From the NCBI RefSeq assembly GCF_018882365.1, contig NZ_JACVOP010000001.1, forward strand, positions 1,158,449 through 1,222,448: a DNA stretch of 64,000 nt. The letters are read 5' to 3'. The stretch is from Polynucleobacter sp. 71A-WALBACH. Its GTDB lineage: Bacteria; Pseudomonadota; Gammaproteobacteria; Burkholderiales; Burkholderiaceae. Made by a program: the position numbers and the translations under genes. This document shows positions 13,407 to 52,968 of this stretch, piece after piece (within the stretch, counting starts at the first letter, position 1; each line of letters opens with the position of its first letter). The notes beneath the pieces were generated by a model, which was not told where the DNA came from, made no database searches, and saw nothing but the letters and a program-made list of their open reading frames with translations.

Positions 13407-13408
13407 TT

Positions 13409-34800: not shown

Positions 34801-34853
34801 TTTACTATAGAAAAACTCTCTTTGGTAATGGACCTAAATTGACAGCAGTTCAG

Positions 34854-35534
34854 ATGGAAACATATAAAAATTCAGCTGATCCCTTGCTCAATAATTTGCG
34901 ATTGAACATCATGCTGTCTGTACTAATTTTATTTTTAGGGCTATCTGGCGTCACCCTGATGCTCTTTTACCGAGCGAAACAAAGAACACAAGAAGAAGAA
35001 TTACGCTTAATTAATAGTAACGAGGTGCTGCATGACGCAGCTCATTTTGATACCTTGACTAAATTGCCTAACCGCCTGTCTCTCGATGGTCTATTGGAGA
35101 GGGCTAAGGCGGTTGCGAGAGTAGATTCAGACTTATTGGCAATTTGCTTCTTGGATTTAGATGGTTTCAAGGAGGTAAATGATCGAATGGGTCATTTATC
35201 TGGAGACAATCTTTTAATTGCTGCAGCAGGGCGCATGAAAAAAGCAGTGCGCGATAGTGACTCCGTGATTCGCTTGGGAGGGGATGAGTTTGTTCTCATC
35301 CTAGGTGGTATAAAAAATGAGACTCAACTAAAGATTCTGCTAAATCGAATGTTGAGTTTGCTATCCGCCCCATTTATGATCGATGGGCGGAATATCTCTA
35401 TCAGTGCCAGTATTGGGGTGACGATTTATCCTAAGGACAACGCGGCCACTACTGATTTATTGGCACATGCGGATTCTGCTATGTATGTTGCTAAGAACCG
35501 GGGCAAGAATGCTTGGGAACTCTACGCCCCCTAA
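34854..35534 (+). pseudogene. Diguanylate cyclase gene truncated at its 5' end by the IS
   Basis: Coding sequence resumes right after the IS right end: a short extracytoplasmic remnant, one membrane helix (about 15-40) and a complete GGDEF domain of about 170 residues. The active site GGDEF and the inhibitory I-site RDSD five residues before it are intact. The missing 5' part presumably encoded a periplasmic sensor. The frame is open back to ATG 34797 inside the IS, which overlaps the orfB stop (ATGA), so a sensorless, membrane-anchored cyclase could still be produced. It may have been the local cyclase for the downstream nfr operon, which is inference. Confidence 0.75.
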
Positions 35535-35644: not shown

Positions 35645-36958
35645 ATGGAATTAGCCAATCAAGCCATGTATTTGGGATTTGGGCTAATCTTCCTTGGCCT
35701 TAGTTTTGGCTCTCTTCATGATTTACGGCATCAATTTAGCTTGCAAAGCTCAAAGCATTACTGGGTTTTTTCTTTGCTTGCGATGTCACTATCTTGCTTT
35801 TTTTTCCTCATCTACCCTCTTGTTGGCGGGCTTGCACTTACGCTTGCTAACGTCACGCAGTTTGCGGCAAATATGGGACTCGTCATCCTTTTTAGATCTT
35901 TTAATACAAAGATTACAAAAGGACTATTGCTGGCATTTTTAATTTCATTGCCATTGTTTGGCCTAGTCTTTGAGCTGACCCGCGCCAAGGAGGCCTATGA
36001 CATACGAATTGAATTTCTCAGTGGCGTAGCAATTGCCCTTGCCATTTGGCAAATGTATGAGGTGAGCGTGCAATATCTAAAGTCTAGATCCATTTATTTG
36101 GGTTTTTTGATTTTAGCTGTTGCTGGACAAATTGCATTATGGATTTATAGAATCTGGACCGTGGATCACTATGCAGACTTTATCGGTCATGCAAGTATTT
36201 TTGATGAGCATTTACCTGAGTTCATTGCGCGATTAATCGTTATTGTTTTATACGCCTTAATTTTTATTGCCATAGGCAATTACTTCTACGACCAATTGGT
36301 GGCTCGAGAACGAGAGCGTCGAGAGGATAAAGAGGAGCAGATGCTAGTTGCCCTGAAGAGCTTAGCTTCGGCAAGGGATAACGACACTGGAAATCATATT
36401 GTGCGGACTCAGCGTTATGTGAAAGTCTTAGCTGAGCGGCTTAAGTTCATGGGATATCACCCTGAGCAGCTTGATACCAAAAAAGTTAATGCCATATACA
36501 GGGCCGCACCTTTGCACGATATCGGAAAAGTGGGTATTCCAGATAGTATTTTGCTTAAAGCAGGCCCCTTAAATTTTGATGAATGGGGTGTGATGAAGAC
36601 TCATGCTGCTATTGGTGAGTCGGTATTAGAAGCTTCAGCAGCCAATCTGAAGGTGAGAGATGAGGTAATAGAGAGTGCCATTCTCATTGCGGGTGGTCAC
36701 CATGAAAAGTGGGATGGTACTGGTTACCCCAGGGGATTAAGCGGTGAAAATATTCCGTTGGATGCCAGAATTATGGCATTGGCAGATATGTACGACGCGC
36801 TCGTGACTAGTAGGCCCTACAAGAGCGCCTGGTCTCATGATGAGGCGATTGAGGAGATAGTGAATAAAAAAGGCACTCACCTAGATCCTACAGTTGTTGA
36901 TGCATTTATTGCCGAAGAAGATTCTTTTAAAGCAATTGCAAATCGATATCGGGATTAA
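35645..36958 (+). CDS. Seven-helix membrane HD-GYP phosphodiesterase
   Basis: 437 residues. Seven predicted membrane helices (1-215) resemble a 7TM sensor module. A short coiled linker (RERERREDKEEQ) follows, then an HD-GYP domain. The metal-binding HDIGKVGIPD (about 290), GGHHEKWDGTGYP (about 355) and ADMYDALVTSRPYK segments are intact, so c-di-GMP hydrolysis is expected. An AGAGG precedes the ATG by 9 nt. It lies between the truncated cyclase and the nfr-like operon. Confidence 0.88.
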   Translation: MELANQAMYLGFGLIFLGLSFGSLHDLRHQFSLQSSKHYWVFSLLAMSLSCFFFLIYPLVGGLALTLANVTQFAANMGLVILFRSFNTKITKGLLLAFLISLPLFGLVFELTRAKEAYDIRIEFLSGVAIALAIWQMYEVSVQYLKSRSIYLGFLILAVAGQIALWIYRIWTVDHYADFIGHASIFDEHLPEFIARLIVIVLYALIFIAIGNYFYDQLVARERERREDKEEQMLVALKSLASARDNDTGNHIVRTQRYVKVLAERLKFMGYHPEQLDTKKVNAIYRAAPLHDIGKVGIPDSILLKAGPLNFDEWGVMKTHAAIGESVLEASAANLKVRDEVIESAILIAGGHHEKWDGTGYPRGLSGENIPLDARIMALADMYDALVTSRPYKSAWSHDEAIEEIVNKKGTHLDPTVVDAFIAEEDSFKAIANRYRD

Positions 36959-37045
36959 GTCCCGGAGCCCTTACAATAATTGCTACATTGGAGTTAGCAT
37001 TTAATCGCTCTTTGCGATGATGCTTTGATTTTTCAGGACTTATTT

Positions 37046-37957
37046 GTGATATCGAATTCAGAGGGCATATCGCCATCACGAGTATATCTACCTGCTGGTA
37101 AAGGCTACCGGACTCTATTCGACTTTTTTATCGATCATTTTCCTCATATTGATTCTAAGGAGTGGGACGCCCGCTTTAGCGAAGGTTTGATAACGCGCTT
37201 AAGTGGTGAGTCGGTAGCGGCAAAAGACCCCTATCAAGCCAATACGCACTTGGTTTATTTTAGGCGCCTAGAGCGAGAGCCCGACATTCCATTCGAAGAG
37301 CAAATCTTGTATCAAGATGAGCATATCCTAGTAGCTGATAAGCCTCATTTCTTGCCCGTGACTCCAAGCGGCCTCTATTTGCATCAAACTTTGTTGAATC
37401 GATTAAAAAAGAAGACGGGCATACAAGACTTAACTCCTATACATAGGATTGACCGAGATACCGCTGGATTGGTTGTCTTTTCAGTTCAGCCCCATGAGCG
37501 TGCTCAATATCAGAATCTATTCAGAGATCGGATGGTCAAAAAAGTATATGAAGCAATAGCTCCCTATTCAGAGGCGCTTCATGCAAGATTGCCGCTGACA
37601 TACTCATGTCGACTGGAGGAGTCTGAGCATTTTCTTCAAATGCAAGAAGTAGAGGGGGAGCCCAATACAGATACTCTAATAGAGCTAGTGGAAGTCTTGA
37701 AGCCTTGGGCAAGATATCGGTTGACTCCAGGCAGTGGAAAAAAGCATCAACTACGATGTCATCTAAATGCTTTGGGTATTCCTATCAAGTTTGATCAAAT
37801 ATATCCAACTTTGACTCCCTACCAAAGGTATGACTTGGATTTTTCAAAACCTTTGCAACTTTTAGCAACAGAGATCTCTTTCCGGGATCCAGTGACGGGA
37901 AAAGAAAGATCATTTTCTAGTCAAAGGGTAGTGGCCCAATTGATTCCTTCTAAATAA
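37046..37957 (+). CDS. RluA-family pseudouridine synthase
   Basis: 303 residues from GTG 37046, preceded by AGGA at 7-nt spacing. A TTG at 37025 would add seven residues. The catalytic segment is HRIDRDTAGLVVFS, with the nucleophilic Asp after RI. The length and the N-terminal block (SPSRVYLPAGKG) resemble the subgroup often annotated RluA/TruC-like. The exact target uridine (23S rRNA or tRNA) cannot be assigned. It appears monocistronic. Confidence 0.85.
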   Translation: MISNSEGISPSRVYLPAGKGYRTLFDFFIDHFPHIDSKEWDARFSEGLITRLSGESVAAKDPYQANTHLVYFRRLEREPDIPFEEQILYQDEHILVADKPHFLPVTPSGLYLHQTLLNRLKKKTGIQDLTPIHRIDRDTAGLVVFSVQPHERAQYQNLFRDRMVKKVYEAIAPYSEALHARLPLTYSCRLEESEHFLQMQEVEGEPNTDTLIELVEVLKPWARYRLTPGSGKKHQLRCHLNALGIPIKFDQIYPTLTPYQRYDLDFSKPLQLLATEISFRDPVTGKERSFSSQRVVAQLIPSK

Positions 37958-38069
37958 GGCCTTTCGCTCGCTATTACCTCACTTTGGAGTGTGATGTTTG
38001 ATGGGTTTTATGGGAGTCTTAGGTGTCAATGAATTCACGATCCAAAATGTATGCTCATTAAATGCTAAT

Positions 38070-38095
38070 TTGTTAGAAGATATGCGCTCTAACAA
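38070..38095. promoter_or_regulatory. Operator-like inverted repeat before the wecB-nfrBA operon
   Basis: TTGTTAGA (38070-38077) and TCTAACAA (38088-38095) are perfect 8-bp arms around a 10-bp spacer. The repeat ends 9 bp before a putative -35 at 38105, the usual place for an activator or repressor of the downstream operon. The cognate regulator is unknown. Confidence 0.5.
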
Positions 38096-38104
38096 CGCTA
38101 AATA

Positions 38105-38132
38105 TTGGCCTTTTACTCAATAAATATATAAA
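38105..38132 (+). promoter_or_regulatory. Putative promoter of the wecB-nfrB-nfrA-ybcH operon
   Basis: TTGGCC (38105-38110), a 16-bp spacer and TATAAA (38127-38132) give a start near 38139 and a leader of about 85 nt. The 267-bp gap before wecB otherwise contains nothing I can assign. Confidence 0.45.
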
Positions 38133-38224
38133 ATCTACAAAAATGCTACTCCGTGACTACTGTATTCGGTCGCCAAATTCCTGGATTTCCCCTTTAACAA
38201 GTTTCTATATCCAAGATCTCTATT

Positions 38225-39322
38225 GTGCTAGCCATACCTAAGATTCTGATTGTTTGCGGCACCCGTCCAGAGATCATTAAGTTAGCGCCTGTTTTTCATT
38301 TCCTACGTGCTCAAAACTGGTGCGAAGTTCAATGGCTGCATACCGGACAGCATCAAGAGATGGCCGAGCAAATTTTGGCTTGTTTTGACATTACCCCTGA
38401 TATTGTTTTAAGCCGGGCCGGAAGCTCACTCTCTGAATTTAGTATTGGCTGTCGTCAGCAATTAGATGCAGTGATGGAGGCGACGAAGTGGGGCGCTGTC
38501 ATTGTCCAGGGCGACACTGAAAGCGCTTTTCTTGGGGGGCTGTCCGCTTTTTATCAGCGTATACCTATTGCACATGTGGAAGCCGGCTTACGAACCTATG
38601 ACTTAACAAGGCCATTTCCAGAAGAGGGCCTTCGACAAATGCTTTCTCGGATTACCCATTTTCATTTTCCCCCAACCGTGGGCGGAAGAGATGCACTTGT
38701 TAAAGAGGCCATTCCTGTAAAGAATATTGTTGTGACTGGCAACACTGTAGTTGATGCTCAAAAATGGGTAATAAAAAAATATCATATTCATAAAGAAGCA
38801 ATAGCTGGACGGAATATGCTTGTCACGATGCATCGCCGTGAAAATTGGGGAAGTGATATCGAGGAAGCTTGTAGGGCAATCGCCACTTTAGCAAGAACCC
38901 ATAAAAAATTGAATGTTGTATTCCCAGTACATCTCAATCCTGTTGTTCAGAAGTCAGTCGACCCCATCTTGGGCGATTTGCCCAATGTTACTTTAACAGC
39001 CCCCCTTGGTTATCTCGAGATGCAACAAGCCATTGCGAATTCATGGCTTATTTTGACTGACTCTGGGGGCATTCAAGAAGAGGCGCCCACTTTTCATGTG
39101 CCGGTATTGGTGTTGAGAAGAGAGACTGAAAGACCTGAGGCTGTCCAAGCGGGGTGTGCGAAGATTATTGGCACCAGTGGGGCAGCCCTCATCAATGAGG
39201 TGAATACCTTATGGGATGATGATTTGCTTTATAAAACGATGATGCCCCTCTCAAATCCGTTTGGAGATGGCCATGCTAGTGAGCGGATTTGCGAGACCCT
39301 AAAAGCACAGCTAAGTAACTAG
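38225..39322 (+). CDS. wecB: UDP-N-acetylglucosamine 2-epimerase (non-hydrolysing)
   Basis: 365 residues from a GTG start. It interconverts UDP-GlcNAc and UDP-ManNAc. Family blocks in order: CGTRPEIIKLAPV, HTGQHQEM, VQGDTES, HVEAGLRT, a PEEGLRQML segment, HRRENWG and TDSGGIQEEAP. It is followed 2 bp later by the nfrB-like synthase. In E. coli wecB sits in the enterobacterial common antigen locus, but its product UDP-ManNAc is also required for the NfrB-dependent glycan. Having it as first gene of this operon suggests a dedicated precursor supply. Confidence 0.94.
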   Translation: MLAIPKILIVCGTRPEIIKLAPVFHFLRAQNWCEVQWLHTGQHQEMAEQILACFDITPDIVLSRAGSSLSEFSIGCRQQLDAVMEATKWGAVIVQGDTESAFLGGLSAFYQRIPIAHVEAGLRTYDLTRPFPEEGLRQMLSRITHFHFPPTVGGRDALVKEAIPVKNIVVTGNTVVDAQKWVIKKYHIHKEAIAGRNMLVTMHRRENWGSDIEEACRAIATLARTHKKLNVVFPVHLNPVVQKSVDPILGDLPNVTLTAPLGYLEMQQAIANSWLILTDSGGIQEEAPTFHVPVLVLRRETERPEAVQAGCAKIIGTSGAALINEVNTLWDDDLLYKTMMPLSNPFGDGHASERICETLKAQLSN

Positions 39323-39324
39323 TC

Positions 39325-41538
39325 ATGTACTTAGTAGATATATTCGCAAGTTATCTTTTTGCGCTAAAGTATGTTTCGATTTTAGTAGCCCTCATCATAT
39401 CTATTAGTAGCCTTGATGATTTGCTGATTGATATTGTCTACTGGTGCCGTCGCTTTATTCGATGGATCACTATCTATCGACAGCATCCAAAGATGCAATA
39501 TCAGGCTTTATTTTCTAAGTTAGAAAAGCCGCTTGCCATTATGGTTCCGGCTTGGCATGAAACGGGCGTTATTGGAAAAATGGCTGAGTTAGCAGCTATT
39601 ACTCTCGACTATGAGAATTATCATATCTTCGTTGGTACTTATCCAAACGATCCAGAAACTCAATTGGACGTTGATAAGGTATGCGCCGTTTTTCCTAATG
39701 TGCATAAGGTCATTTGTGCAAGACCGGGACCTACAAGTAAGGCAGATTGCCTTAATAACGTTTTAGATGCCATTTTGCAATTTGAATTGCAGGCAAGCCT
39801 AGAGTTTTCAGGCTTTATTTTGCATGATTCTGAAGATGTGGTCTCTCCATTAGAGTTGCGTCTTTTCAACTACCTTCTTCCAGGCAATGACCTCATTCAA
39901 ATACCAGTTTATCCATTTGAAAGATCTTGGAGCAACTTCACCTGCATGCATTATTTAGATGAATTTGCAGAAATGCATGGCAAGGATGTTGTTGTTAGAG
40001 AGGCCTTGGCAGGCCAGGTTCCAAGTGCTGGCGTTGGGACTTGTTTTAGCCGCAAGGCAGTACTGGCGCTCTTGGCGGATGGAGATGGTATTGCATTTGA
40101 TGGACAAAGCTTGACTGAAGACTACGACATTGGTTTTCGTCTGAAGGCAAAAGGACTTAAAGAAATTTTTGTGCGCTTTCCGGTGATTCTAGATGACTCC
40201 AAGCATGCAAAAGACATGTTATTAAATGGTCAAAGCATTCGAGACTCAAATGTTATTTGTGTACGTGAATATTTTCCAGATACGCTGGCGACTGCAATTA
40301 GGCAAAAATCCCGCTGGATCACGGGAATTGTGTTTCAGGGATATAAAACACATGGCTGGTCTAAAAGTTCGGTATTGAACTATTTTCTTTGGCGAGATCG
40401 CAAGGGGATTATTACCAACTTCATTAGTTTTATCGCCTCAATGATTTTGATTCAACTAGTGATTGTTTGGTTATATCAAGAGCTCTGGCCTGGGGCATAC
40501 CATTTTTTATCCATATTCGAGTCTAGTGAATGGTTGATGGGCCTAATGTGGATTAACTTCTTTTTGATGGGCAATCGTATGATTCAGCGCATCTTTTTTG
40601 TATCATCTTATTATGGTCTTGCCCAAGGCCTGCTTTCAATCCCTCGCCTATTTTGGGGGAACTACATTAACTTCATGGCAAATTGGAAAGCTATGAGCCA
40701 GGTGATTGCGCATGGCGACCCACACCGTATTGCCTGGGATAAAACCACGCATGATTTTCCAACAATAGGGCTTGAGAACAAAGAGCGAAAGAGGTTGGGA
40801 CAAATTCTCATTGATCAAGGCGTGGTGACTAAAGATCAGTTGGAATCTGTACTAACCCATCATGTTCATGGCATCAGGATTGGTAGCGCATTAGTGCATC
40901 AGGGCATCTTAAGTTCCGTCGAGCTTGCTGATGCGCTAGCGATTCAAGCAGGCGTCCCTATGGAGGCTATCGATCCGTATGCCATTCCGGCAGAGATGAT
41001 CGAGGCCATTTCGCCTTCGATAGCCTTGCACTATGCCATTCTACCGATTAGACGCGAGGGCGCTACCCTTATTGTGGCCAGTGAGTCTGCCTTGGATCCG
41101 ATTTCACTGGCGGCTATTAGTCGAAAATTGAAGTGCGGTATTCGATATTTTATTGCGCCTAAAGGTCAAGTTACAGTGGGCTTAAGAAGATGGTATGAGC
41201 ACTTGGATGCAGATGATCCCAGAGCAATATTGGATGAAGCTATTGCCTCTGGAAAAGTTCAGCCAAGCCATGCAGAAGAAATATGGAATTTTTATGTTGC
41301 CAGGCAAGTCATTCTTGCTGAGGTGCTAGTGTCTTTGGGGCACATTAATGAAGCTGCACTTCGTGCTTTGTTATTGCAGCATTCGGTGACTGATTTGAAT
41401 TTAGGAGACTTCTTAGTTGATAAAAATATCGTTAGTCGAGAAACGTTGGAAAAAGCGTTAAAAGTTCAAAGTCAACTTCAGCCAGAGATGCGTCAGTTGA
41501 TAGAATCTGAAGTTGCAATTCAATCCAGCTCTGCATGA
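39325..41538 (+). CDS. nfrB: NfrB-like glycosyltransferase with C-terminal MshEN domains
   Basis: 737 residues, close to E. coli NfrB (about 745). N-terminal membrane helices (1-40) are followed by a GT2 domain (about 65-350), with HDSEDVVSP, the TEDYD segment and the QKSRW (QxxRW) motif of processive synthases. More membrane helices follow (about 365-470). From about 488, two tandem MshEN c-di-GMP-binding motifs read RLGQILIDQGVVTKDQL and RIGSALVHQGILSSVEL, and a third, more divergent copy lies near 655-715. NfrB polymerises an N-acetylmannosamine-containing exopolysaccharide when c-di-GMP binds the MshEN domain. The same is expected here. The stop overlaps nfrA. Confidence 0.88.
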   Translation: MYLVDIFASYLFALKYVSILVALIISISSLDDLLIDIVYWCRRFIRWITIYRQHPKMQYQALFSKLEKPLAIMVPAWHETGVIGKMAELAAITLDYENYHIFVGTYPNDPETQLDVDKVCAVFPNVHKVICARPGPTSKADCLNNVLDAILQFELQASLEFSGFILHDSEDVVSPLELRLFNYLLPGNDLIQIPVYPFERSWSNFTCMHYLDEFAEMHGKDVVVREALAGQVPSAGVGTCFSRKAVLALLADGDGIAFDGQSLTEDYDIGFRLKAKGLKEIFVRFPVILDDSKHAKDMLLNGQSIRDSNVICVREYFPDTLATAIRQKSRWITGIVFQGYKTHGWSKSSVLNYFLWRDRKGIITNFISFIASMILIQLVIVWLYQELWPGAYHFLSIFESSEWLMGLMWINFFLMGNRMIQRIFFVSSYYGLAQGLLSIPRLFWGNYINFMANWKAMSQVIAHGDPHRIAWDKTTHDFPTIGLENKERKRLGQILIDQGVVTKDQLESVLTHHVHGIRIGSALVHQGILSSVELADALAIQAGVPMEAIDPYAIPAEMIEAISPSIALHYAILPIRREGATLIVASESALDPISLAAISRKLKCGIRYFIAPKGQVTVGLRRWYEHLDADDPRAILDEAIASGKVQPSHAEEIWNFYVARQVILAEVLVSLGHINEAALRALLLQHSVTDLNLGDFLVDKNIVSRETLEKALKVQSQLQPEMRQLIESEVAIQSSSA

Positions 41539-44102
41539 AACAATTCATAAAGATCTTTCTTGTATTGCTGGCTATTAATGGATACGCCCAATCAGCACCC
41601 AAGCCAGACCTGGGTGCTGGCATTAGCTCCTATCAGAAGTTCCTGATTTATCCTCACATTGAAAAGGGTATGAGTGCGCTAGAAGTTGGGGACAATAGTA
41701 GAGCAATTCAAGAATTTTTATGGGCTCGAAAAAGAGCGCCAAAAAGTCCAGCCACTGCTTTATATCTTGCAAATGCTTACATCAAGGATGGTGATTATTC
41801 AAAAGCCGAAAAGGTTCTGGAGCAGCAGCTTATATTTACTCCAAAGAACCCGCAAATCTTAAAAAGGCTATCCAATACACTAGTTTTGAAGGGTGATTAT
41901 TTAGCAGCCTCACAATCCCTAGAGGGGGAATTACAGGTCAATGAGAATAATATTATTGCCAGAGAGAAATTAAAAGTGGTCAATCAGGAGTTGGCAGGCG
42001 AGGAGTTGACGAGGTTGAAAAATCTTCAAGAAGATGATCCGGCCCAGTTCTTAGAAGATTTAAAAGGTAAAAAAGTACGTTTTGAAAATGCATTTGATGA
42101 AAGAAATTGGATTGACCTGCTTTTAACGGATTTTGCAAAGCAGCCTGAATTACTCCTCAGCTATCAGCCTGAATTTTATTCCAATCAAATCTATCAAGCT
42201 GAAAAAGTCTTACAGAAATTGCTCGTAGCGGGGCGGAAGGCCGAAGCAGATGCATATATTGCTGGACTCCCTGATGGCATTAAATTAAGCCCTGTCTTTT
42301 TAGATCATTTAAGCTATCAATTGCTCAATGAAAATGGGGAGCATCAAGCGATAGAATTATTGTTAGGCGCCTACCCATTTTTTCGGGCAAGCAACTCTCA
42401 GCGTGAAGAGTTAATCAATCGACTGACTATCTTGTTAAAGACTCATAAAGATGTCATTTCTGCTCCCTACGTCGCTAAATTAAGTATTCCCCTAGAAACT
42501 CCTGAGCTCAGATCTCTGCAGGTGAAATTGTTATCCGCCTTGAATGATTGCCTAGCGATACGTCAAATACTTGGAGACTATTCTGCTTTTTATACTCCAG
42601 ACGATTGGACTAGCTTGGGTTACTGCTATGGCGACCAAAGTCCAGGATTGGGTCTGTTTGCTTTCGAGCGTGCCGAAGAGCTTGCCCCAAGCTCTGATCG
42701 TGAAAGGGCTGTAGCGTATGAAGCATTCAGAGCAAAAAATTATTTGCGCGCTTTAACTGCCTGGAACTCTATCTCAATGGCTCAAATGACTCCCGCTGAT
42801 ATGCTAAGTGCAGCTACTACTGCTCAAACCCTTGGTGATGACAAAGAATTAAATAAATGGCTGCAGGTTTATCAGAAGAAAAATGGCGAAAAAAATGATC
42901 GTTACTGGTGGCTGATGGCGCAAACACAATTGAAGTCTAACCCTCAAGTGGCTATTGAGTACCTATTAAAAGCAGCAGCTCTCCAGCCATCCGTTACGTA
43001 TTATTCTCAAATAGCCTCTTTGTTGATGGTGGAGGGAAAGATTGCTGAGGCTATCGATTATTTTCATAAGGCTTTAGCCCTAAATCCCTTCGATAGTGCT
43101 ACTCAGGCTGCTCTAGGGTATGCCTACTACCAACAAGGTAACTATCAACGCGCTCAAAACTATTTACAGGCTTCCCTAAAATCTCGGCCTGACGATGAAG
43201 AGCTCATCAAGCAATTGGCATATACAGATCAAAAGCTGGGAAAAAATGCAGGAGCAATTCAGTATGCTGAAGCGGCCATTGATAGTTTGAATCGTTATGC
43301 TGCCAAGGAGATTACTCCTGAAATGAGAAGTACTGAGTTTGGTATGAGGAGAATGCACGAGGATTTGCAGCGGCGTTGGTCCTTTACGGCCGATGCGATG
43401 AGCGGCAATCAAGTCACTGCCGCACCTAGCATCGGACAGCCGGGTGTGAATTATCGAAGCTACTCTCAAGCTGAGGCTGCTTATAGACTGGGCGACCCCG
43501 CCATTGATAACGGCAAGTCACTATCAGCGTACACCCGGATTTTTGCAGGAGGAGGGGTCAATAACTCCGCGGTCCCTCTTTATGCGCCAATGATTGCGGG
43601 CGGATTGCGGTGGAAACCATTCTCTGACTATGTACTGAACTTGGCGGTAGAGGAGCAAACCCCTTTAGATCGCGGCCAATATACACAAACCTCTATGATG
43701 TTGCGTGCTAGCGCCTCTTTATTTAATTCGGGCATCTATAGTGATGACTGGCACCCCAATGGTCCTGGCTGGGTGGCGCAAAATTTATACCTAGACGCCG
43801 CTCACTATCTATCTACATCCGTCACTTCATTGGTGTCGGATTATCGTATCAGTTACCACCATAAGATTGAAGAAGGTCAAACCATTGAGCCATATGTGCA
43901 TGCGCAATGGAGTAGTCTGAACCAGGCAAATGGTGTCGATGAGCGCCTTGGATTCGGAGCAAGATGGAATATTTGGCAAGGGCAGAGTAAATACAATGCA
44001 TACCCCTCAAAAATGATGGTTGGACTGGAATATCAATATGCCTTTAAAACCTATCTCAATGATAAAAGTGCGGTCTTTCTCAGCTTAGGAGGGCGTTGGT
44101 AA
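41535..44102 (+). CDS. nfrA: NfrA-like outer-membrane TPR/beta-barrel exopolysaccharide porin
   Basis: 855 residues: signal peptide (1-20, ending YAQS), a long periplasmic TPR superhelix (about 30-600, with clear repeats near 45-125 and 490-560), then a C-terminal barrel ending SVFLSLGGRW-like (AVFLSLGGRW). The TPR-plus-barrel layout equals NfrA, which exports the NfrB polymer and is the phage N4 receptor in E. coli, though NfrA there is longer (about 990). The start overlaps nfrB (ATGA) and the stop overlaps ybcH (TAATG). Confidence 0.8.
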   Translation: MKQFIKIFLVLLAINGYAQSAPKPDLGAGISSYQKFLIYPHIEKGMSALEVGDNSRAIQEFLWARKRAPKSPATALYLANAYIKDGDYSKAEKVLEQQLIFTPKNPQILKRLSNTLVLKGDYLAASQSLEGELQVNENNIIAREKLKVVNQELAGEELTRLKNLQEDDPAQFLEDLKGKKVRFENAFDERNWIDLLLTDFAKQPELLLSYQPEFYSNQIYQAEKVLQKLLVAGRKAEADAYIAGLPDGIKLSPVFLDHLSYQLLNENGEHQAIELLLGAYPFFRASNSQREELINRLTILLKTHKDVISAPYVAKLSIPLETPELRSLQVKLLSALNDCLAIRQILGDYSAFYTPDDWTSLGYCYGDQSPGLGLFAFERAEELAPSSDRERAVAYEAFRAKNYLRALTAWNSISMAQMTPADMLSAATTAQTLGDDKELNKWLQVYQKKNGEKNDRYWWLMAQTQLKSNPQVAIEYLLKAAALQPSVTYYSQIASLLMVEGKIAEAIDYFHKALALNPFDSATQAALGYAYYQQGNYQRAQNYLQASLKSRPDDEELIKQLAYTDQKLGKNAGAIQYAEAAIDSLNRYAAKEITPEMRSTEFGMRRMHEDLQRRWSFTADAMSGNQVTAAPSIGQPGVNYRSYSQAEAAYRLGDPAIDNGKSLSAYTRIFAGGGVNNSAVPLYAPMIAGGLRWKPFSDYVLNLAVEEQTPLDRGQYTQTSMMLRASASLFNSGIYSDDWHPNGPGWVAQNLYLDAAHYLSTSVTSLVSDYRISYHHKIEEGQTIEPYVHAQWSSLNQANGVDERLGFGARWNIWQGQSKYNAYPSKMMVGLEYQYAFKTYLNDKSAVFLSLGGRW

Positions 44103-44992
44103 TGCGTTATGTATTGATCACTTTATTTTGCTTACTATCCAGCATTGCTCAGGCTGGAGATATTAGGGGTATCTTCTTTCAGCCACAAGAATCTGATCTC
44201 AAGATTCCTGTAGAGAGCTGGCCTAAGATTTTTTCCGAGGCGCGCAATCGGGGATTTACTGACTTAGTTATCCAGTGGACCAGCTTTGGGGATGTATTTT
44301 CGTCACAGGCAAATCAAGAGTGGTTAAAAGATCGCATGATTCAAGCATCTCAGGCTGACTTAAAGCTCATCGTAGGGCTTGGTGGGGACCCGGAAATGTT
44401 TACCCTTTTAAAGCAACCCCCTCCAATTGTTGGAAGCTACTTTAGGAAAATCAATCAAATCAATGTGGCGCTTGCAACTCGTTGGGCAAAAATACTTCCA
44501 GCGGGGATGATCTCGGGATGGTATCTTCCGCTTGAGGTAGATGATCGGCAGTGGAGGGAGGCTCCCGCACGCGCCGAACTGACCAAATATCTTATTCGTC
44601 AAGTCGACGAGCTGAATCAAGTATTGCCAGTACCAACTTATATTTCAAGCTTCTTTGCAGGTAACATGACGCCGGAGCGTTATGCTGCGATGCTGGAAAA
44701 CATGGAGGCGCAATCCCATGTTCATTTTTGGGTCCAAGATGGATCTGGAACAAATAAATTAACTAAGCCAGAGCGCGATCTTTATTTGGAGGCTGTTTCT
44801 AATTGCAAGGGTTACGCTGTATCAGGACTTATCTTTGAAATTTTTACCCAAACCCAAGCCGATCATCAGTTTGCCGCCAAACCCCTCAATGCGGCAGATA
44901 TGAATAAAACGCTTCGACAGAAGAGTCCGTGCGGAGGAGATAACGTTTTCTTTGCCTTGAACTATCTGATCGATTTCAACGCTACAAAATAG
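44102..44992 (+). CDS. ybcH: YbcH-like secreted DUF4434 protein of the nfr operon
   Basis: 296 residues from ATG 44102, overlapping the nfrA stop. The signal peptide ends SIAQAG. The rest has a TIM-barrel-like glycoside-hydrolase composition typical of DUF4434 (RGIFFQPQ at the N-terminus, ISGWYLPLEVDD and HFWVQDGSG further on). In E. coli the equivalent protein YbcH is encoded next to nfrA. A role in trimming or modifying the exported glycan in the periplasm is likely but unproven. The Glu in LPLEVDD is a candidate catalytic residue. Confidence 0.72.
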   Translation: MRYVLITLFCLLSSIAQAGDIRGIFFQPQESDLKIPVESWPKIFSEARNRGFTDLVIQWTSFGDVFSSQANQEWLKDRMIQASQADLKLIVGLGGDPEMFTLLKQPPPIVGSYFRKINQINVALATRWAKILPAGMISGWYLPLEVDDRQWREAPARAELTKYLIRQVDELNQVLPVPTYISSFFAGNMTPERYAAMLENMEAQSHVHFWVQDGSGTNKLTKPERDLYLEAVSNCKGYAVSGLIFEIFTQTQADHQFAAKPLNAADMNKTLRQKSPCGGDNVFFALNYLIDFNATK

Positions 44993-45129
44993 TAGCTTGG
45001 TTTAGCGCTCTATAGGGCCGTTCTGAGTTGCCTTGGTTTGGCGGTTGCCATGTTCATAAGACTCAAGTGGCCTGATGTATCCCCGACCAAAACAAACTAA
45101 AATCAATAACAATTAATAATTGATTAAAA

Positions 45130-46218
45130 GTGACCGTGGAAAACAAACTCAAGAAAAGATTAGCGGTTGCTCCCATGATGGAGTGGACCGATCGTCATTG
45201 CCGATCTTTTCATCGCACCCTCACTAAAGATGCCGTTCTGTATACCGAGATGGTGACTACAGGTGCACTCATTCACGGGGATGTACCGCGCCATTTGGAT
45301 TATTCCCAAGACCAACATCCAGCAGTGCTTCAACTGGGTGGTTCTGAGCCTTCTGACTTGGCTAAAGCTGCCGAGTTGGCTCAGCAGTGGGGCTACGATG
45401 AAGTTGATCTAAATTGTGGCTGTCCATCTGAGCGGGTGCAGCGCGGAGCCTTCGGTGCCTGCTTAATGGCTGAACCACAATTAGTAGCGGATTGTGTGAG
45501 GGCTATGAAATCCGCTGTCGATATCCCAATCTCAGTCAAGCATCGTCTTGGCTTGGACAATATGGATGCTGCAAACTCTGAGGCCGATTATCAGTTTGCG
45601 CTCAATTTCATATTAGCGGTTGCTGATGCAGGCGCAAGTCAAGTCACTATCCATGCCCGTAATGCCGTACTCAAGGGTTTATCTCCAAAAGAAAACCGTA
45701 GCAAACCCCCTTTGCGTTATGAGGTAGCTGTAAAGCTTCGTCTGGATGCCCAAAAACAATACCCTCTTTTAAAAGTCCTATTGAATGGTGGTCTTGAGAG
45801 TAATGATCAGATTGCTGGCCATTGGGATGATTTTGATGGTTTTATGGTGGGTAGGGCGGCTTATCATTTCCCGGCCATGCTCTTAGGTTGGGATGACCTC
45901 ATTGCTACTGATGGTGAGGCTGCGGGCTACCTTTTTAGTGAGACGGAATGGCATCGCATTCAGATTGCGTTGATTAAGCAAGTGCAGACGTGGTTTGATG
46001 AGTGTCAGGTCAAGAAGAAACCCTTTTATATTGGCGCCTTTACAAGGCACATCTTGGGTTTAGCGCACGGCAGGGCGGGATCTCGGTACTGGCGCCAACG
46101 CCTCTCAGACCACCATGCTTTAGCCAAGGTTCAGAGTAAGGCGGCCATTGCTGATTTTTTCCTCGATGCCAGCTTAACCCTGGGTGACTGGGCTGCCTTT
46201 GAATTTGAGGCCGCCTAA
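45130..46218 (+). CDS. dusA: tRNA-dihydrouridine(20/20a) synthase DusA
   Basis: 362 residues. It starts at GTG 45130, and another GTG two codons later is equally possible. The flavoenzyme reduces U20/U20a in tRNA D-loops. The N-terminal VAPMMEWTDRHCR is DusA-specific. The active-site Cys is in NCGCPSERVQRGAFG, and FMN-binding VKHRLGLD and LNGGLES follow. It ends 20 bp before a consensus promoter for tRNA-His. Confidence 0.95.
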   Translation: MTVENKLKKRLAVAPMMEWTDRHCRSFHRTLTKDAVLYTEMVTTGALIHGDVPRHLDYSQDQHPAVLQLGGSEPSDLAKAAELAQQWGYDEVDLNCGCPSERVQRGAFGACLMAEPQLVADCVRAMKSAVDIPISVKHRLGLDNMDAANSEADYQFALNFILAVADAGASQVTIHARNAVLKGLSPKENRSKPPLRYEVAVKLRLDAQKQYPLLKVLLNGGLESNDQIAGHWDDFDGFMVGRAAYHFPAMLLGWDDLIATDGEAAGYLFSETEWHRIQIALIKQVQTWFDECQVKKKPFYIGAFTRHILGLAHGRAGSRYWRQRLSDHHALAKVQSKAAIADFFLDASLTLGDWAAFEFEAA

Positions 46219-46238
46219 ATCGATCATCTAGGGTATTT

Positions 46239-46268
46239 TTGACAGGGTTTTGGCCCAAAAGCTATAAT
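46239..46268 (+). promoter_or_regulatory. Consensus sigma-70 promoter of tRNA-His
   Basis: TTGACA (46239-46244), an 18-bp spacer and TATAAT (46263-46268): both hexamers are perfect. The predicted start is 7-8 nt before the tRNA. Confidence 0.9.
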
Positions 46269-46282
46269 CTTAGATCTTCAGT

Positions 46283-46359
46283 GGCGGACGTAGCTCAGTT
46301 GGTAGAGTCCCAGATTGTGATTCTGGTTGTCGCGGGTTCGAGCCCCGTCGTTCGCCCCA
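46283..46359 (+). tRNA. tRNA-His (GTG)
   Basis: Full cloverleaf: G-1 at 46283, acceptor GCGGACG/CGTTCGC, D-arm GCTC/GAGT, anticodon arm CCAGA-TTGTGAT-TCTGG with anticodon GTG, T-arm GCGGG/CCCGT. The discriminator is C73, which pairs with the encoded G-1, the His identity element. CCA is encoded (46357-46359). Confidence 0.97.
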
Positions 46360-46413
46360 CCGAATACTGTATTAAATGCGCTTCATTCCTCTCGGAATAA
46401 GCCATCCCTACTG

Positions 46414-47925
46414 TTATTTTGGGCTATATAAGCGCACTTGATTTCTGCCTTGTGACTTCGCTTGATACATCGCCTCATCCGCATTTGCACTCAACTCAGC
46501 CTCAGTCTCACCGTGCTCTGGATAAATGGCAACCCCTAAGCTGGCACCTGTAACCAGCTCTGAATTATTTGCCATGAATTTCTGTAATAGCGCGACACGA
46601 ATTTTTTCCGCAATCGCCAAGGCACTTGCTTCAGAGTCAATGTTAGGTAGTAGGACGACAAACTCATCCCCTCCGATACGAGCAACCGTATCTGATGTAC
46701 GTACACAGTTGAGCATCCGTTTCGCTGATTCGCAGATGGCAATATCTCCAGCAGCATGACTATGGTTGTCATTAATGGATTTGAGATTATCAAGATCAAT
46801 AAATATCAGAGCAAATTTGGATTTATGGCGTTTTGCAAGTTCGAAAGTTTGCTGAAGTCGATCCGCGAAGAGCATGCGGTTTGGAAGCCCTGTTAACGGG
46901 TCGTGATTTGCAAGGTGCTGATTTTTGAAGTTAGAGCGTATGGATTTGAGTAGTAGCTTTGCTCCTATTAAAAGGAGAACAAGGCTCAAAGCAGTTGTAT
47001 AAAAAATGCCATAGGCACTCTGGCGCCAGCCAGCTAAGTACAGCTCCTCGGTAGCAATTGCACCAACAACTAAAGGGTAGTTCGGAACTATGCGAAAGGA
47101 GATCATCCTTTGTACTCGAGCATTGTCTCGAAGTGCGGTGGGGGAGTCCGTCAAAATTACTCGCCCCTTCAAGTTGGGATCATTTATAGCATTTTCAAGT
47201 ACTTCGCTGGTATTTACCTTGCCAATACGATCATCCACAAAAGGCCAACGCGTTAATAGCGTTTGATCTTTTTTGAAGAGCACTAGTGATGCACCATCTC
47301 CAAGATTGGTGCCAATCTGTTCGTAGAATTTTGAGAATACTTCGGCGGAAACGCCTATCAATGCAACCCCTAAAAACTCCTCATTTGCATTGCTAATTCT
47401 TTTGGCTAAATAAAAGACCCATTTGCCATTGCCTTTATTTTTAACGGGATTGCTGAAGTAGGTTTGGGTAGACGTGTGGGTGCTTAGGTATTTAAAGTAA
47501 TCCCTGTCAGATAGATCAATATTAGGCGCAGGATAAGAGCGTGAAAAATTGAGTACTTTGCCATTGGCGCCAACGTAGGTGGCTACGTCAATAATTGCAT
47601 TCGCGTTGGTTTTTTCTTCTAAGTTCAGGAATTGTGCTTTTTTCTCGGCAAACTCGCGATATTCTTTTTCGGTCCTAATGTTTGCCGCAGAAACGGCGTC
47701 CGTAAGGCTCTCTAGCGCTGTGTTTGCCGAAAACATCGTTTGGGCAGCATGCTCTGCTAAAACTACAGTTAAATTAGAGAGTTGTTCTGATCGGTCCTTA
47801 ACTGAGCTTTGCCTCAGAATGTAAGCGGAAATACTGGCGCTAACAATAAAGACAATTGCGATGGCAATGGCTGCAATGGTGGTAATTCGGGTAACTCTGT
47901 TGGTTCTTGAACTTAAATCCATCAT
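46414..47925 (-). CDS. Membrane diguanylate cyclase with periplasmic sensor (Cache-like)
   Basis: 503 residues: TM1 (about 15-37), a periplasmic domain of about 260 residues with PAS/Cache features (DLSDRDYFKYL, GKWVFYLAKRI), TM2 (about 303-328), then a GGDEF domain (about 340-500). The active site RIGGDEF and the I-site RTSD are intact, so c-di-GMP synthesis with product inhibition is expected. The DRDYF segment is common in Cache domains that sense small ligands. It is convergent with tRNA-His. Confidence 0.9.
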   Translation of the reverse strand: MMDLSSRTNRVTRITTIAAIAIAIVFIVSASISAYILRQSSVKDRSEQLSNLTVVLAEHAAQTMFSANTALESLTDAVSAANIRTEKEYREFAEKKAQFLNLEEKTNANAIIDVATYVGANGKVLNFSRSYPAPNIDLSDRDYFKYLSTHTSTQTYFSNPVKNKGNGKWVFYLAKRISNANEEFLGVALIGVSAEVFSKFYEQIGTNLGDGASLVLFKKDQTLLTRWPFVDDRIGKVNTSEVLENAINDPNLKGRVILTDSPTALRDNARVQRMISFRIVPNYPLVVGAIATEELYLAGWRQSAYGIFYTTALSLVLLLIGAKLLLKSIRSNFKNQHLANHDPLTGLPNRMLFADRLQQTFELAKRHKSKFALIFIDLDNLKSINDNHSHAAGDIAICESAKRMLNCVRTSDTVARIGGDEFVVLLPNIDSEASALAIAEKIRVALLQKFMANNSELVTGASLGVAIYPEHGETEAELSANADEAMYQAKSQGRNQVRLYSPK

Positions 47926-48238
47926 TTATGCTATCAAATAAAACTAATAATAATAAAAAATATCAAAATAATGAAAAAAATAGATATCTCCCGGCTCACT
48001 GTTGGGTCTTTGCTATGGGCGATGGCCCCCAGTTCTTATTCCACGCAGTCCTTATTGAAAGCCTGGGGGTTATTTTGAATCCCGGGGACATCTAGTAGAT
48101 TAATACTAATTTTGGGCAGTATGGAGCAGTTTTACCTTGAAATCGCTAGTCATGGCTATGTATTCTTCTTATCATCATCTCTATAACTTTAGTGCTGGCT
48201 TTCCATTTGGCTGCCCACTCCTTACCTTAGATTAGCCC
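47926..48238. other. 313-bp divergent intergenic region with an inverted repeat
   Basis: No gene was found. The left part is an AT-rich run of A/T trinucleotides (promoter side of the cyclase gene). CCCCCAG (48026-48032) and CTGGGGG (48063-48069) form a 7-bp inverted repeat 30 bp apart. I do not recognise a riboswitch here. Confidence 0.4.
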
Positions 48239-51235
48239 TTGAACCGCTCTATTCTTTCTAATTTACCTGCACTCTTCTCACAAAGGTCGGTGATTAAGGC
48301 CGCACTCTGGTCGCTTGCCTATGCGGGTATTTGCACTTTTCTGCTGACCTACTTTTCTGGGGCTGCGGGGGAGAGTCCGGTATGGATCCCAGCTGGCATT
48401 GGTTTGGGTGTATTGCTCACTTTGGGCTGTCGTTATTGGCCTTTTATTTTCCTTGCGGCAGTAGCCGGGGAGATGGGTGGTGGCCATACCGTATTGATGG
48501 CCACTCAACTGGCTTTTGGCTCGGTCTGCGGTTTTCTCGTAGCCGCTGTTATTTTGACGCGGTTTACGATATTTAATCCTCGCCTCGAATCCATTGGTGA
48601 CTATATGCGCTTGCTATCCGCAAGTGCTATCGCTGCACTGATTAGCGCCTCCCTCAATATTCAATTTTTGATCTGGGGCGGTTTAATGCCTCTTGACAAT
48701 ATAGGCTCTGTTTATCAGAAATGGTTAACTGGTGACTACTTCGGAATGGCATTTGTTGCACCAGTGCTATTAATTTTGAATGGGAAGTGGCCAAGCTCCT
48801 GGACTAGAAAAAAAACGATTTATTTGTGCCTTTTATTGTTTGCAGCTTTTGCTTTGGGTCAGGCAGTATTTTTTGGATGGTTCAGGGAATATGTTGATTT
48901 AACGGGCAGGGGCTACAGCTTCCTGTTCATCATGGCTTGCACAGGTTTATTCTTTGGGCGACAAGGCGCCATGTTGCTGCTGACCTTATTGTTGATGCAA
49001 TCGATATTCGGCGCTTTTTATGGCGATGGATTTTTTGCTAGCAATCTCATGAGTAGGGCCGCCCCTACAATGCTCTGGTTTTATCTTGGACTACTTTCCA
49101 TGCTTGGACTACTGGTTAGCTTAGTAGTGGAGAGCTTTAGTCTTAAGAATGCTCGCTTGCAAACGGCAGTAGAAATTGCAAGAGAGTCTGAGGAGCATTT
49201 TCGGCAAATTGTTTCTAGTACCCCAGTGTTAATAGCTACCTACGATCTCAGTACCGAGAAAACGGACTTTGTAAACCCGCACTTTACTGCGGTATTGGGG
49301 TATGTGGTTGAAGATTTTTTGGCCCCAAATTCTTGGTGGCCAATCGCCTACCCAGACCCAATCTACAGACAAGAGATAGAAGAGGAATGGCATAAGAGAG
49401 CCGCTAAATCTCAATCAAGTCAGACCCCTTTCGAGCCCCTGCAAACAAGCACCAGATGTAAAGATGGGTCGATTCGCACTATCAAGTGGGGATGCTTTCT
49501 TGTTGCCGATCGCATGGTCATTCATGGAGTAGATATTACGGAGGAAAAGCGTGCTGCCGAAGTATTGAACATCACCTCCGCCGTATATCGCGCGATGGGC
49601 GAGGCGGTAGTCATTCAGGATGTGAATAATTCAATCCTGATGGTGAATGAAGCTTTTCAAGCATTAACTGGATTTAACTTTGCCGAATTAGAAGGGCAGT
49701 CTTTCGCTGACTTTCTGGTGAAGCGCCATGGTGCACGTTCTTATTCAGATATCTTTACCACCCTTGAGGCGATGGGCCGCTGGGAGGGTCAGGCGTGGAT
49801 CAGGATGAAGGATGGTGGTGAAGTGCTGCGTTTTGTCTCCATTTACTCCACCTTTAATGAGGAGGGTGCGCCCTTGCAGAGAGTGGCATTGCTCTCTGAG
49901 GTGACCGACCAGCGCAAAGCGCGGGAGCTGATTAATCAGCAGGCCAACTTTGATCCGTTAACGGGATTACCCAATCGGCGATTAATGTTTGACCGTCTCG
50001 AGCAGTTGATTAAGCAATCCATTCGCAGTGATAAAAGCATTGCTATCGCATATATCGATTTGGATAATTTCAAAGATATTAATGATAGTCGAGGCCATGA
50101 TTTTGGCGATCAATTATTGAAGGGAATTTCAGCGCGCTTGCGTTCTGAAGTTCGGCAAACTGATACTGTAGCTCGTATTGGTGGTGATGAGTTTGTCATT
50201 CTTCTGGGGGATTTAGAAAGACCAGAAATTGCCGATACTATTATTCGCGAGGTCTCTGGAAAGCTTGCAGATCCAATTTTGATTGATGGCCAACTGGTTT
50301 ATATCACTGCCAGTATGGGTATCTCCATGTTCCCGAATGATGGAAGCGATGGCAAAGCCCTATTACTGGGCGCGGACCAGGCCATGTACGCCGCGAAATC
50401 TCACGGCAGAAATACATATCAATATTTCACTCAATCTTTACAAATTAATGCCTCTTACCGAGCTGGCGTGATTTCTGATTTACGTGACGCGCTTGAAAAG
50501 AATCAGTTTGAACTCTATTACCAGCCCATCATCAATATGAAGACTGGCCAGATTGCGCATGCCGAAGCCTTGCTCCGATGGCGCAGGGCGAATGGCGAGA
50601 TAGCGTTGCCGTCTGCTTTTATTCATATTGCGGAAGAGTCGGGGTTGATTGTAGAAATTGGCGACTGGGTTTGGAAAGAGGCGATTGCTTTTTTAGGGGG
50701 CTTAAAGTTGCCACCTCACTTTACGCTTGCAATTAACGTAGCCGCCTCTCAATTTAATTCTAGCCAGCATTCGGCAGCCTCTTGGCTGGAGGTGCTAAAA
50801 CAGCATCGGGTCGCACCTGAGTATGTCAGTCTGGAGATAACTGAGCGGATGATGTTGAATCAGTCGCATCGGGTCATGCGAAAAATTGCCATGCTGCAAG
50901 AGTCCGGTTGCAAATTTAGCGTGGATGATTTTGGGACTGGCTACTCTTCACTGGCCTCTTTAAAGAGCTTTAATTTTGATTACATCAAGATTGATGCTGA
51001 TTTCATTAAGCCTTTGACGCCAGATAGTCAGGATGCCGCTTTAGTATTTGCGATGATTTCAATGGCGAAGGGCTTGGGATTAGAGTCAATCGCTGAGGGT
51101 GTCGAGACCGAAGAACAGGCTCAAATACTGTCTACGATGAGCTGTACCTACGCTCAAGGTTACCTGTACAGCAAGCCATTGCCAGCTCAGGAGTTTGAGG
51201 CGCTTCTCGCCAAGCAATCAGCCGCCAACAGCTAA
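48239..51235 (+). CDS. MASE1-PAS-PAS-GGDEF-EAL sensor protein
   Basis: 998 residues from TTG 48239, limited by an in-frame stop at 48233. A GTG at 48290 is an alternative. MASE1 membrane sensor (about 15-310), two PAS domains (about 320-435 and 440-565), GGDEF (about 570-730, RIGGDEF intact, RQTD I-site) and EAL (about 750-990). The EAL domain keeps AEALLRW, EITERM, DDFGTGYSS and EGVETEEQ, so it is probably active. A bifunctional or switchable c-di-GMP enzyme is predicted. Confidence 0.92.
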   Translation: MNRSILSNLPALFSQRSVIKAALWSLAYAGICTFLLTYFSGAAGESPVWIPAGIGLGVLLTLGCRYWPFIFLAAVAGEMGGGHTVLMATQLAFGSVCGFLVAAVILTRFTIFNPRLESIGDYMRLLSASAIAALISASLNIQFLIWGGLMPLDNIGSVYQKWLTGDYFGMAFVAPVLLILNGKWPSSWTRKKTIYLCLLLFAAFALGQAVFFGWFREYVDLTGRGYSFLFIMACTGLFFGRQGAMLLLTLLLMQSIFGAFYGDGFFASNLMSRAAPTMLWFYLGLLSMLGLLVSLVVESFSLKNARLQTAVEIARESEEHFRQIVSSTPVLIATYDLSTEKTDFVNPHFTAVLGYVVEDFLAPNSWWPIAYPDPIYRQEIEEEWHKRAAKSQSSQTPFEPLQTSTRCKDGSIRTIKWGCFLVADRMVIHGVDITEEKRAAEVLNITSAVYRAMGEAVVIQDVNNSILMVNEAFQALTGFNFAELEGQSFADFLVKRHGARSYSDIFTTLEAMGRWEGQAWIRMKDGGEVLRFVSIYSTFNEEGAPLQRVALLSEVTDQRKARELINQQANFDPLTGLPNRRLMFDRLEQLIKQSIRSDKSIAIAYIDLDNFKDINDSRGHDFGDQLLKGISARLRSEVRQTDTVARIGGDEFVILLGDLERPEIADTIIREVSGKLADPILIDGQLVYITASMGISMFPNDGSDGKALLLGADQAMYAAKSHGRNTYQYFTQSLQINASYRAGVISDLRDALEKNQFELYYQPIINMKTGQIAHAEALLRWRRANGEIALPSAFIHIAEESGLIVEIGDWVWKEAIAFLGGLKLPPHFTLAINVAASQFNSSQHSAASWLEVLKQHRVAPEYVSLEITERMMLNQSHRVMRKIAMLQESGCKFSVDDFGTGYSSLASLKSFNFDYIKIDADFIKPLTPDSQDAALVFAMISMAKGLGLESIAEGVETEEQAQILSTMSCTYAQGYLYSKPLPAQEFEALLAKQSAANS

Positions 51236-51238
51236 TAT

Positions 51239-51372: not shown

Positions 51373-51375
51373 TAC

Positions 51376-52935: not shown

Positions 52936-52968
52936 AGAGGGCCCCTGAAGGCTTGCTCCTCAGTTACA

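Follow-up and report, generated by a model that had tools for sequence, protein, structure and literature searches.

Four consecutive genes of Polynucleobacter sp. 71A-WALBACH, wecB, nfrB, nfrA and ybcH, raise the question of whether a freshwater bacterium can build a surface polysaccharide under the control of cyclic di-GMP (c-di-GMP) and supply the sugar precursor from the same operon. The genes occupy 38225-44992 of a 64,000-nucleotide stretch, here called the window (contig NZ_JACVOP010000001.1 of assembly GCF_018882365.1, positions 1,158,449 to 1,222,448), in a genome of 2.33 Mb and nine contigs. The evidence obtained here consists of genes, domains, motifs, gene order and phylogeny. It makes it very probable that the operon encodes a c-di-GMP-activated, Nfr-type synthase-dependent exopolysaccharide system supplied with uridine diphosphate N-acetylmannosamine (UDP-ManNAc); the use of ManNAc as substrate and the export of the chain would be as in Escherichia coli.

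The four genes of a probable Nfr-type system

All four genes are intact and lie on the + strand in the open reading frame (ORF) list of the window. The first, wecB (nfrC-type; 38225-39322, GTG start, 365 amino acids), encodes a non-hydrolysing UDP-N-acetylglucosamine (UDP-GlcNAc) 2-epimerase predicted to supply UDP-ManNAc. It is followed by nfrB (39325-41538, 737 amino acids), encoding a membrane processive GT2 synthase with, by homology, a C-terminal MshEN c-di-GMP domain; by nfrA (41535-44102, 855 amino acids), encoding a tetratricopeptide repeat (TPR) and outer-membrane pore protein; and by ybcH (44096-44992, TTG start, 298 amino acids), whose DUF4434 product is a predicted periplasmic glycosidase-like TIM barrel. 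A preliminary description of the locus, made from the sequence alone, had claimed tight spacing and a precursor enzyme gene inside the operon. The ORF coordinates bear this out, with a gap of 2 bp between wecB and nfrB directly downstream of it, an overlap of 4 bp between nfrB and nfrA and one of 7 bp between nfrA and ybcH. The gene names given in that description agree with family searches: WecB matches Epimerase_2 (336.6 bits) and passes TIGR00236 of NCBIfam (394 bits against a cut-off of 210), NfrB matches two GT2 models (127.9 and 112.2 bits) and MshEN (41.2 bits, cut-off 23.1), and YbcH matches DUF4434 (105.2 bits). NfrA matches TPR models and carries, as had been anticipated, the NfrA_C domain at residues 679-848 (43569-44078; 131.6 bits against a cut-off of 25).

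The same description had compared the locus with the phage N4 receptor system of E. coli, and both homology (NfrB, NfrA and YbcH) and gene order sustain the comparison. The window operon shares with nfrBA-ybcH of E. coli K-12, known as the NGR pathway (Junkermeier and Hengge, 2021; Sellner et al., 2021), the architecture and motifs of NfrB, the proteins NfrA and YbcH, the gene order and the tight spacing. Identity to the K-12 proteins is 60.8% over 725 amino acids for NfrB, 36% over 779 for NfrA and 38% over 290 for YbcH. The features of an Nfr system are all present, namely GT2 motifs, MshEN motifs, an NfrA with TPRs and NfrA_C, a DUF4434 gene after nfrA and a UDP-GlcNAc 2-epimerase in the genome. 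A chance arrangement is excluded, since the gene order recurs in 13 other loci of the genus (NfrB identity 63-87%; some loci partial, one decayed). The curated NCBIfam cut-offs for three of the proteins count against this assignment. NfrB, at 1159.7 bits, falls 10 bits short of the 1170 set for NF008411, a value reached by four other members of the genus; NfrA scores 519.6 bits against 1223 (NF007302, PRK09782) and YbcH 238.4 against 344 (NF007404, PRK09936), although these thresholds are naming rules and not defining features of the Nfr system. NfrA is also shorter than its E. coli counterpart of 990 amino acids. Scans for promoters and terminators were uninformative, with 6 and 7 sites found where shuffled sequences gave 14.4 and 6.9.

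The catalytic core of NfrB is strongly conserved. Among 51 aligned NfrBs, which include that of the window, D168, E170 and D171 of the D-S-E-D active-site stretch (DxD region, residues 168-171; 39826-39837), the TED motif (residues 264-266; 40114-40122) and the QxxRW motif (residues 327-331; 40303-40317) are kept in every sequence. The closest folds to an AlphaFold model of NfrB (pLDDT 83.9) are PcManGT, BcsA and hyaluronan synthase (Z 21-23), in a comparison that barely covers the region past residue 481. NfrB shares a membrane GT2 synthase fold and c-di-GMP control with BcsA, the bacterial cellulose synthase, which uses UDP-glucose as its substrate. In the published passages, this control is exerted via PilZ in BcsA and via MshEN in NfrB.

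Residues 490-541 of NfrB (40792-40947), aligned with Vibrio cholerae MshE (5htl), form a first pair of MshEN motifs and, by homology, a c-di-GMP site. Seven of the eight canonical positions are kept in each 24-residue motif (14 of 16 in total), compared with five and seven of eight in E. coli K-12 NfrB; the eight positions are those that we take to be canonical, and they fit the sequence of V. cholerae MshE. The preliminary description had made its case depend in advance on the alignment of the arginine/leucine motif residues of MshEN, and these residues do align, at the same seven of eight per motif. Residues of the window NfrB likewise align with E. coli L490, G491, L505, L509, L518 (Ile here) and G519. 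The best Pfam MshEN stretch lies at residues 543-627 (40951-41205; 41.2 bits is the score of the whole protein), and NfrB is the only MshEN-domain match in the genome. According to passages of the 2021 NGR papers (PMC8669469, PMC8669472), K-12 NfrB binds c-di-GMP with a Kd of about 1 uM, and the G491L exchange abolishes or strongly reduces N4 infection. By analogy with E. coli, activation of the window NfrB by c-di-GMP may be regarded as well supported.

In the proposed pathway, WecB would convert UDP-GlcNAc to UDP-ManNAc, and NfrB, as a BcsA-like membrane synthase, would polymerise ManNAc and, on binding of c-di-GMP to its C-terminal MshEN domain, drive the growing chain through the inner membrane. 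NfrA would then conduct the chain through the periplasm and outer membrane, and YbcH, a glycosidase-like barrel in the periplasm, would trim or process it. The scheme is supported by the identity of NfrB to E. coli NfrB, since c-di-GMP binding and a need for wecB have been demonstrated there.

wecB as the probable partner of nfrB

The preliminary description had presented the wecB-nfr linkage as independent genomic support for a ManNAc-based polymer. However, both the linkage and the argument drawn from it have been in print since 2021, in passages of PMC8669469 and PMC8669472, and plasmid operons of Thalassospira and Zymomonas also rule out the linkage as new. The window operon is a sound new example and not a new system; Polynucleobacter is not mentioned in the main text of either paper. 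In E. coli, wecB lies in the enterobacterial common antigen cluster, whereas in the window it lies inside the operon. Plasmids pCSC3H3 of Thalassospira marina and pZZM403 of Zymomonas mobilis ZM4 carry the same four genes (wecB-nfrB-nfrA-DUF4434) in the same order and strand, with identities to the window of 52% and 47%, respectively, for NfrB and 37% and 39% for WecB. The Zymomonas operon, on a plasmid of 33 kb, spans 6717-14084 of its locus (L037). Linkage of wecB to nfrB is also found in Pseudomonas soli and Achromobacter xylosoxidans, whose nfr clusters are known here from passages of the literature (PMC8669469, PMC8669472); the latter cluster has extra BcsB-like and O-acetyltransferase genes (PMC8669472).

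The operon WecB keeps the residues aligned with R10, K15, D95, E117, E131, H213, S290 and E296 of E. coli WecB, eight residues that we take to be the ones to compare. The WecB model matches twice in the genome, at 393.9 bits in the operon and at 233.4 bits in a second copy. The latter adjoins a gene for a WbcJ protein (595 bits, cut-off 500) and an FnlA-like gene, whose label leans on this neighbourhood because its 663 bits lie below the cut-off of 730. These genes stand in a row, at 6907-10209 of their locus (L040), within a surface-polysaccharide cluster. They are predicted to form a UDP-N-acetyl-L-fucosamine (UDP-L-FucNAc) pathway, of which the second WecB-type gene presumably encodes the 2-epimerase, and this gene is unlikely to be a spare source of UDP-ManNAc. 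Since the other WecB-type gene sits in this predicted cluster, the operon wecB is probably the sole UDP-ManNAc source of the genome. This fits a rule given in a passage of PMC8669469, by which organisms without another wecB carry one beside nfrB.

The neighbourhood survey of nfrB that the preliminary description had suggested extends this pattern. In the genus, nfrB is patchy, being carried by 14 of 186 genomes (in G703 it is cut at a contig end and in G094 it has decayed), and wecB lies directly upstream in all 14, the window included. The decay in G094 affects the whole wecB-nfrB-nfrA-ybcH operon, which is broken into fragments (L059, 7669-13050). A wider survey took the best 80 of at least 502 named relatives, a sample that leans to sequences like that of the window, and grouped them by record title and identity into 27 Enterobacterales, 7 Polynucleobacter-like and 46 other loci. 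Among these 80, wecB is directly upstream in 37 (3 of 27 Enterobacterales, 28 of 46 others and 6 of 7 Polynucleobacter-like), near in another arrangement in 6, undetected within the fetched stretch in 35 and impossible to judge in 2. The 35 include L113, in which a short WecB-like fragment of 74 bits, excluded by the 250-bit threshold for WecB, lies directly upstream of nfrB; this locus was left out of the 11 unlinked 'other' loci when a genome-wide search for WecB was made in 21 nfr genomes. In that search, WecB was found elsewhere in 9 of 10 unlinked non-enterobacterial genomes (at 495-536 bits) and in all three unlinked enterobacterial genomes tested, and in five of eight linked genomes the only match had the sequence of the operon copy. 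The tenth unlinked genome, a metagenome-assembled genome with 2.8 kb of upstream sequence (L067), has no WecB match, perhaps owing to incompleteness, and counts against the proposed dependence on WecB. A class-wide NfrB search at 1e-250 passed only the genome under study (1 of 369), which says little on where E. coli-type NfrB occurs because that threshold was over-strict. A single-protein scan of genome contigs gave no match and was repeated with an alignment.

The survey also brought to light several unusual loci. Rheinheimera faecalis has two tandem nfrB-nfrA pairs followed by one ybcH-like gene (L133, 4579-16112). In three records, of Hafnia, E. coli and Vibrio (L076, L098 and L128), nfrB is split into two ORFs, possibly as pseudogenes or through sequencing errors. 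In a set of Comamonadaceae and other mainly Burkholderiales loci (L111, L113, L115, L117, L118, L120, L121 and L122), profiles from window-type proteins give very low scores for the NfrA and YbcH parts, which mostly lie further apart.

A WecB phylogeny of 76 rows, reduced to 68 by removal of eight duplicates, places 35 operon copies, that of the window among them, in one clade (support 99/96). E. coli WecB belongs to the other large clade (support 94/90, not starred), as do the three linked Enterobacteriaceae copies and the six 'near' copies, which are convergent or divergent. The genome's other WecB-type gene clusters with four further copies of low score; the deepest part of the tree is unsure, with long branches to FnlC-like rows. 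The upstream-linked label changes twice on this tree, and equally often with the starred branches alone. Most simply, nfr-linked wecB would have arisen twice; up to five recruitments could lie behind the five linked lineages seen, or fewer gains with losses. The distances of NfrB and WecB correlate (r 0.91; 0 of 2000 permutations as high) over 23 operons, these being the upstream-linked WecB rows, out of 38, with an aligned NfrB, and three Enterobacteriaceae being left out. Such a value is expected for a co-inherited unit, and shared species history alone could also yield it.

Two other explanations of the linkage have to be considered. The machinery might work as described and yet make no ManNAc homopolymer, the product being a GlcNAc or mixed chain or WecB serving something else as well. 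The polymer could contain GlcNAc because WecB-type enzymes interconvert the two sugars, a point that tells against a pure ManNAc chain, and nfr loci draw on two WecB clades, so that no one type of epimerase is fixed. Passages of both 2021 papers (PMC8669469, PMC8669472) speak of the E. coli glycan as putative or postulated, and no structure for it was found among the literature-search results listed. Against this stand the requirement of N4 infection in E. coli for wecB and not for wecA or wecC, as reported in passages of the 2021 NGR papers, and the linkage pattern across the genus and the wider loci, which leave such a product a minority prospect. Far less credible is the idea that wecB belongs to a general surface-polysaccharide island and is joined to nfrB without functional meaning. 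The operon does lie in a stretch of lower G+C content (44.1%, against 46-48% around it, with 47.9% at 1-24000 and 46.4% at 46000-64000 of the window), with a transposase-like ORF nearby. However, a meaningless link is hard to square with wecB directly upstream in every nfr-bearing genus genome and in 37 of the best 80 relatives, or with the Enterobacterales, which mostly lack an upstream wecB and, in the three unlinked cases tested, carry the gene elsewhere. A UDP-ManNAc-supplied Nfr system remains the preferred reading of the operon.

Predicted modules in NfrB and YbcH

Further along the NfrB tail, residues 660-718 (41302-41478) hold a second, degenerate MshEN-like motif pair, recognised by hhalign and a shuffle test. 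Aligned with each other by hhalign, pairs 1 and 2 match with a probability of 98.1 and an E value of 6.7e-14, and all 51 NfrB tails score above all 1020 shuffles. Among the 51 sequences, L693 is conserved in 43, G694 in 49 and Q715 in 50, and the third motif has its glycine in 27 and an alanine in its place in 21. A PDB search with the tail gave 11 matches at E values up to 10, all of them PilF, PilB or MshE entries; the best E value, 3.8e-5, is the sum of several weak stretches, and the others range from 0.089 to 0.3. Part of the K-12 NfrB C terminus is labelled a domain of unknown function in a passage of Sellner et al. (2021), and possibly corresponds to this second pair. No report of a second MshEN pair in NfrB was found in literature searches and passages of the 2021 papers. 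The prediction would hold for E. coli NfrB too.

The DUF4434 model of YbcH, built from an alignment of 49 sequences, is a TIM barrel (pLDDT 94.4). In fold it comes closest to the putative alpha-L-fucosidase 4h41 (Z 20.8, 252 residues aligned, 3.2 A), and further matches at Z 15.4-17.5 include GH42, GH164 and GH5 enzymes, beta-amylases and CcsZ of a cellulose operon. In the TIM barrels of clan GH-A, strand 4 and strand 7 each end in a glutamate, the first of which usually follows an asparagine. YbcH has this layout, with E147 (44534-44536; in 49 of 49 sequences) ending strand 4 (residues 139-149) and E248 (44837-44839; in 48 of 49) ending strand 7 (residues 244-248). It is predicted to be a glycosidase-type barrel, a hydrolase role being proposed here only, and this too would apply to E. 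coli. Several observations tell against such a role: the residue before E147 is a leucine, unlike the clan GH-A asparagine, E248 is missing in one sequence, Foldseek also returns TIM barrels that are not glycosidases (MbnB, dihydrodipicolinate synthase), and N4 can infect E. coli without ybcH, according to a passage of Junkermeier and Hengge (2021). There YbcH is regarded as a putative scaffold, perhaps with an auxiliary role, and the main text of Sellner et al. (2021) does not name it. Neither 'hydrolase' nor 'glycosidase' occurs as a word start in the main texts of PMC8669469 and PMC8669472, and nothing on a hydrolase-type role for YbcH or DUF4434 was found among the literature-search results listed. 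A PDB sequence search with the YbcH profile gave no matches at E values up to 1.

Taken together, a more far-reaching picture can be put forward tentatively, as one that is rather doubtful in its entirety. In it, NfrB would be a two-site c-di-GMP switch of two modules and four 24-residue motifs, YbcH would be a glycosidase devoted to the polymer that NfrB makes, and nfr loci would have acquired their epimerase gene on more than one occasion, from different clades of WecB.

Neighbouring genes, chromosomal site and significance

Two genes of c-di-GMP metabolism flank the operon on opposite sides, each one gene away, as possible local partners of NfrB. One, at 35645-36958 on the + strand, encodes an HD-GYP phosphodiesterase (HD_5 106.8 bits; HDIGK and HHEKWDGTGYP present) and the other, at 46414-47925 on the - strand, a dCache-GGDEF diguanylate cyclase (GGDEF 160.8 and dCache_1 48.6 bits; GGDEF and RxxD present). 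E. coli NfrB uses the dCache-GGDEF protein DgcJ, as passages of the 2021 NGR papers report, whereas no DgcJ ortholog was found beside the window operon; the cyclase scores 90 bits against the DgcJ cut-off of 500, with its best stretch from residue 315 on, and was rejected as such an ortholog.

It is an even question whether the two genes serve NfrB or share a genomic locus with the operon by chance. Besides the low DgcJ score, chance is favoured by the 15 further dCache-GGDEF loci, all without nfr genes (14 from genomes without nfrB and one from another contig of the carrier G744), in 10 of which the HD-GYP gene still adjoins. Of 186 genus genomes, 44 contain a relative of the cyclase (some matched in part) and only 7 of these 44 carry nfr, and a GGDEF, EAL or HD-GYP match was found in the fetched stretch of only 18 of the best 80 wider nfr loci. 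Partnership is favoured by five other nfr loci (L038, L039, L051, L055 and L057) in which the pair also stands beside nfr, in several arrangements, by a GGDEF-EAL gene directly downstream of ybcH in two more (L049 and L054), and by the DgcJ precedent. Altogether, 8 of the 14 genus loci have a c-di-GMP gene close by. Four of the remainder (L050, L052, L053 and L058) are on short or cut contigs, and two (L056 and L059) show none. An association of nfr with diguanylate cyclases in pseudomonads is already in print, in a passage of PMC8669469.

Outside the system, the operon is flanked on the left by an RluA-type pseudouridine synthase gene, called rluA (37025-37957, + strand; PseudoU_synth_2 77.8 bits, over the cut-off, and below that of the rluA subfamily), and on the right by a tRNA-dihydrouridine synthase-like gene named by eye and called dusA (45130-46218, + strand). 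A search of 61 genus genomes found a dusA-like gene in 60 and both genes in 52. The two lie within 100 bp on the same strand in 12 of these 52, none of which has nfrB, and within 10 kb in 39; on the same contig and strand, the interval runs from 13 bp to about 93 kb. As the interval varies in content, insertion of the operon between rluA and dusA is the simplest reading, loss elsewhere being possible, and the interval (37025-46218) is a possible insertion hotspot. Other nfr loci of the genus lie in several different contexts, and no direct or inverted repeats of at least 18 bp were found in either junction or framing the operon. Further to the left, 33976-35534 holds an ORF judged transposase-like by eye and, overlapping it by 4 bp, the start of a GGDEF gene. 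The N-terminal part of this cyclase is short, and the insertion may have truncated it.

Any role of the window system as a receptor for an N4-like phage is a guess. A relative of the N4 160 kDa protein (gp65, a tentative label) was found in each of 62 phage records, some of them from Achromobacter or Delftia phages; none of these records is named for Polynucleobacter, which neither supports nor refutes the receptor idea. The same protein gave six loci, and the sole match of the 60 kDa protein (gp66, also a tentative label) in viral contigs is 100% identical, in a contig as long as N4 itself.

The genus Polynucleobacter can dominate bacterioplankton, as stated in a passage of PMC7522526, and the operon places a predicted c-di-GMP-controlled surface glycan pathway in these small-genome freshwater bacteria. 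To the published picture, the present analysis adds a probable sole source of UDP-ManNAc, two WecB clades, a patchy genus distribution with the rluA/dusA site, a second MshEN-like pair and the barrel prediction for YbcH. The patchy occurrence of the operon, with visible decay in one genome, would be in keeping with a structure that becomes a burden when phages attack. Further, the in-operon epimerase makes the pathway self-contained and therefore movable as one unit to a laboratory host, in which the glycan, left putative or postulated in both 2021 papers, may be identified.

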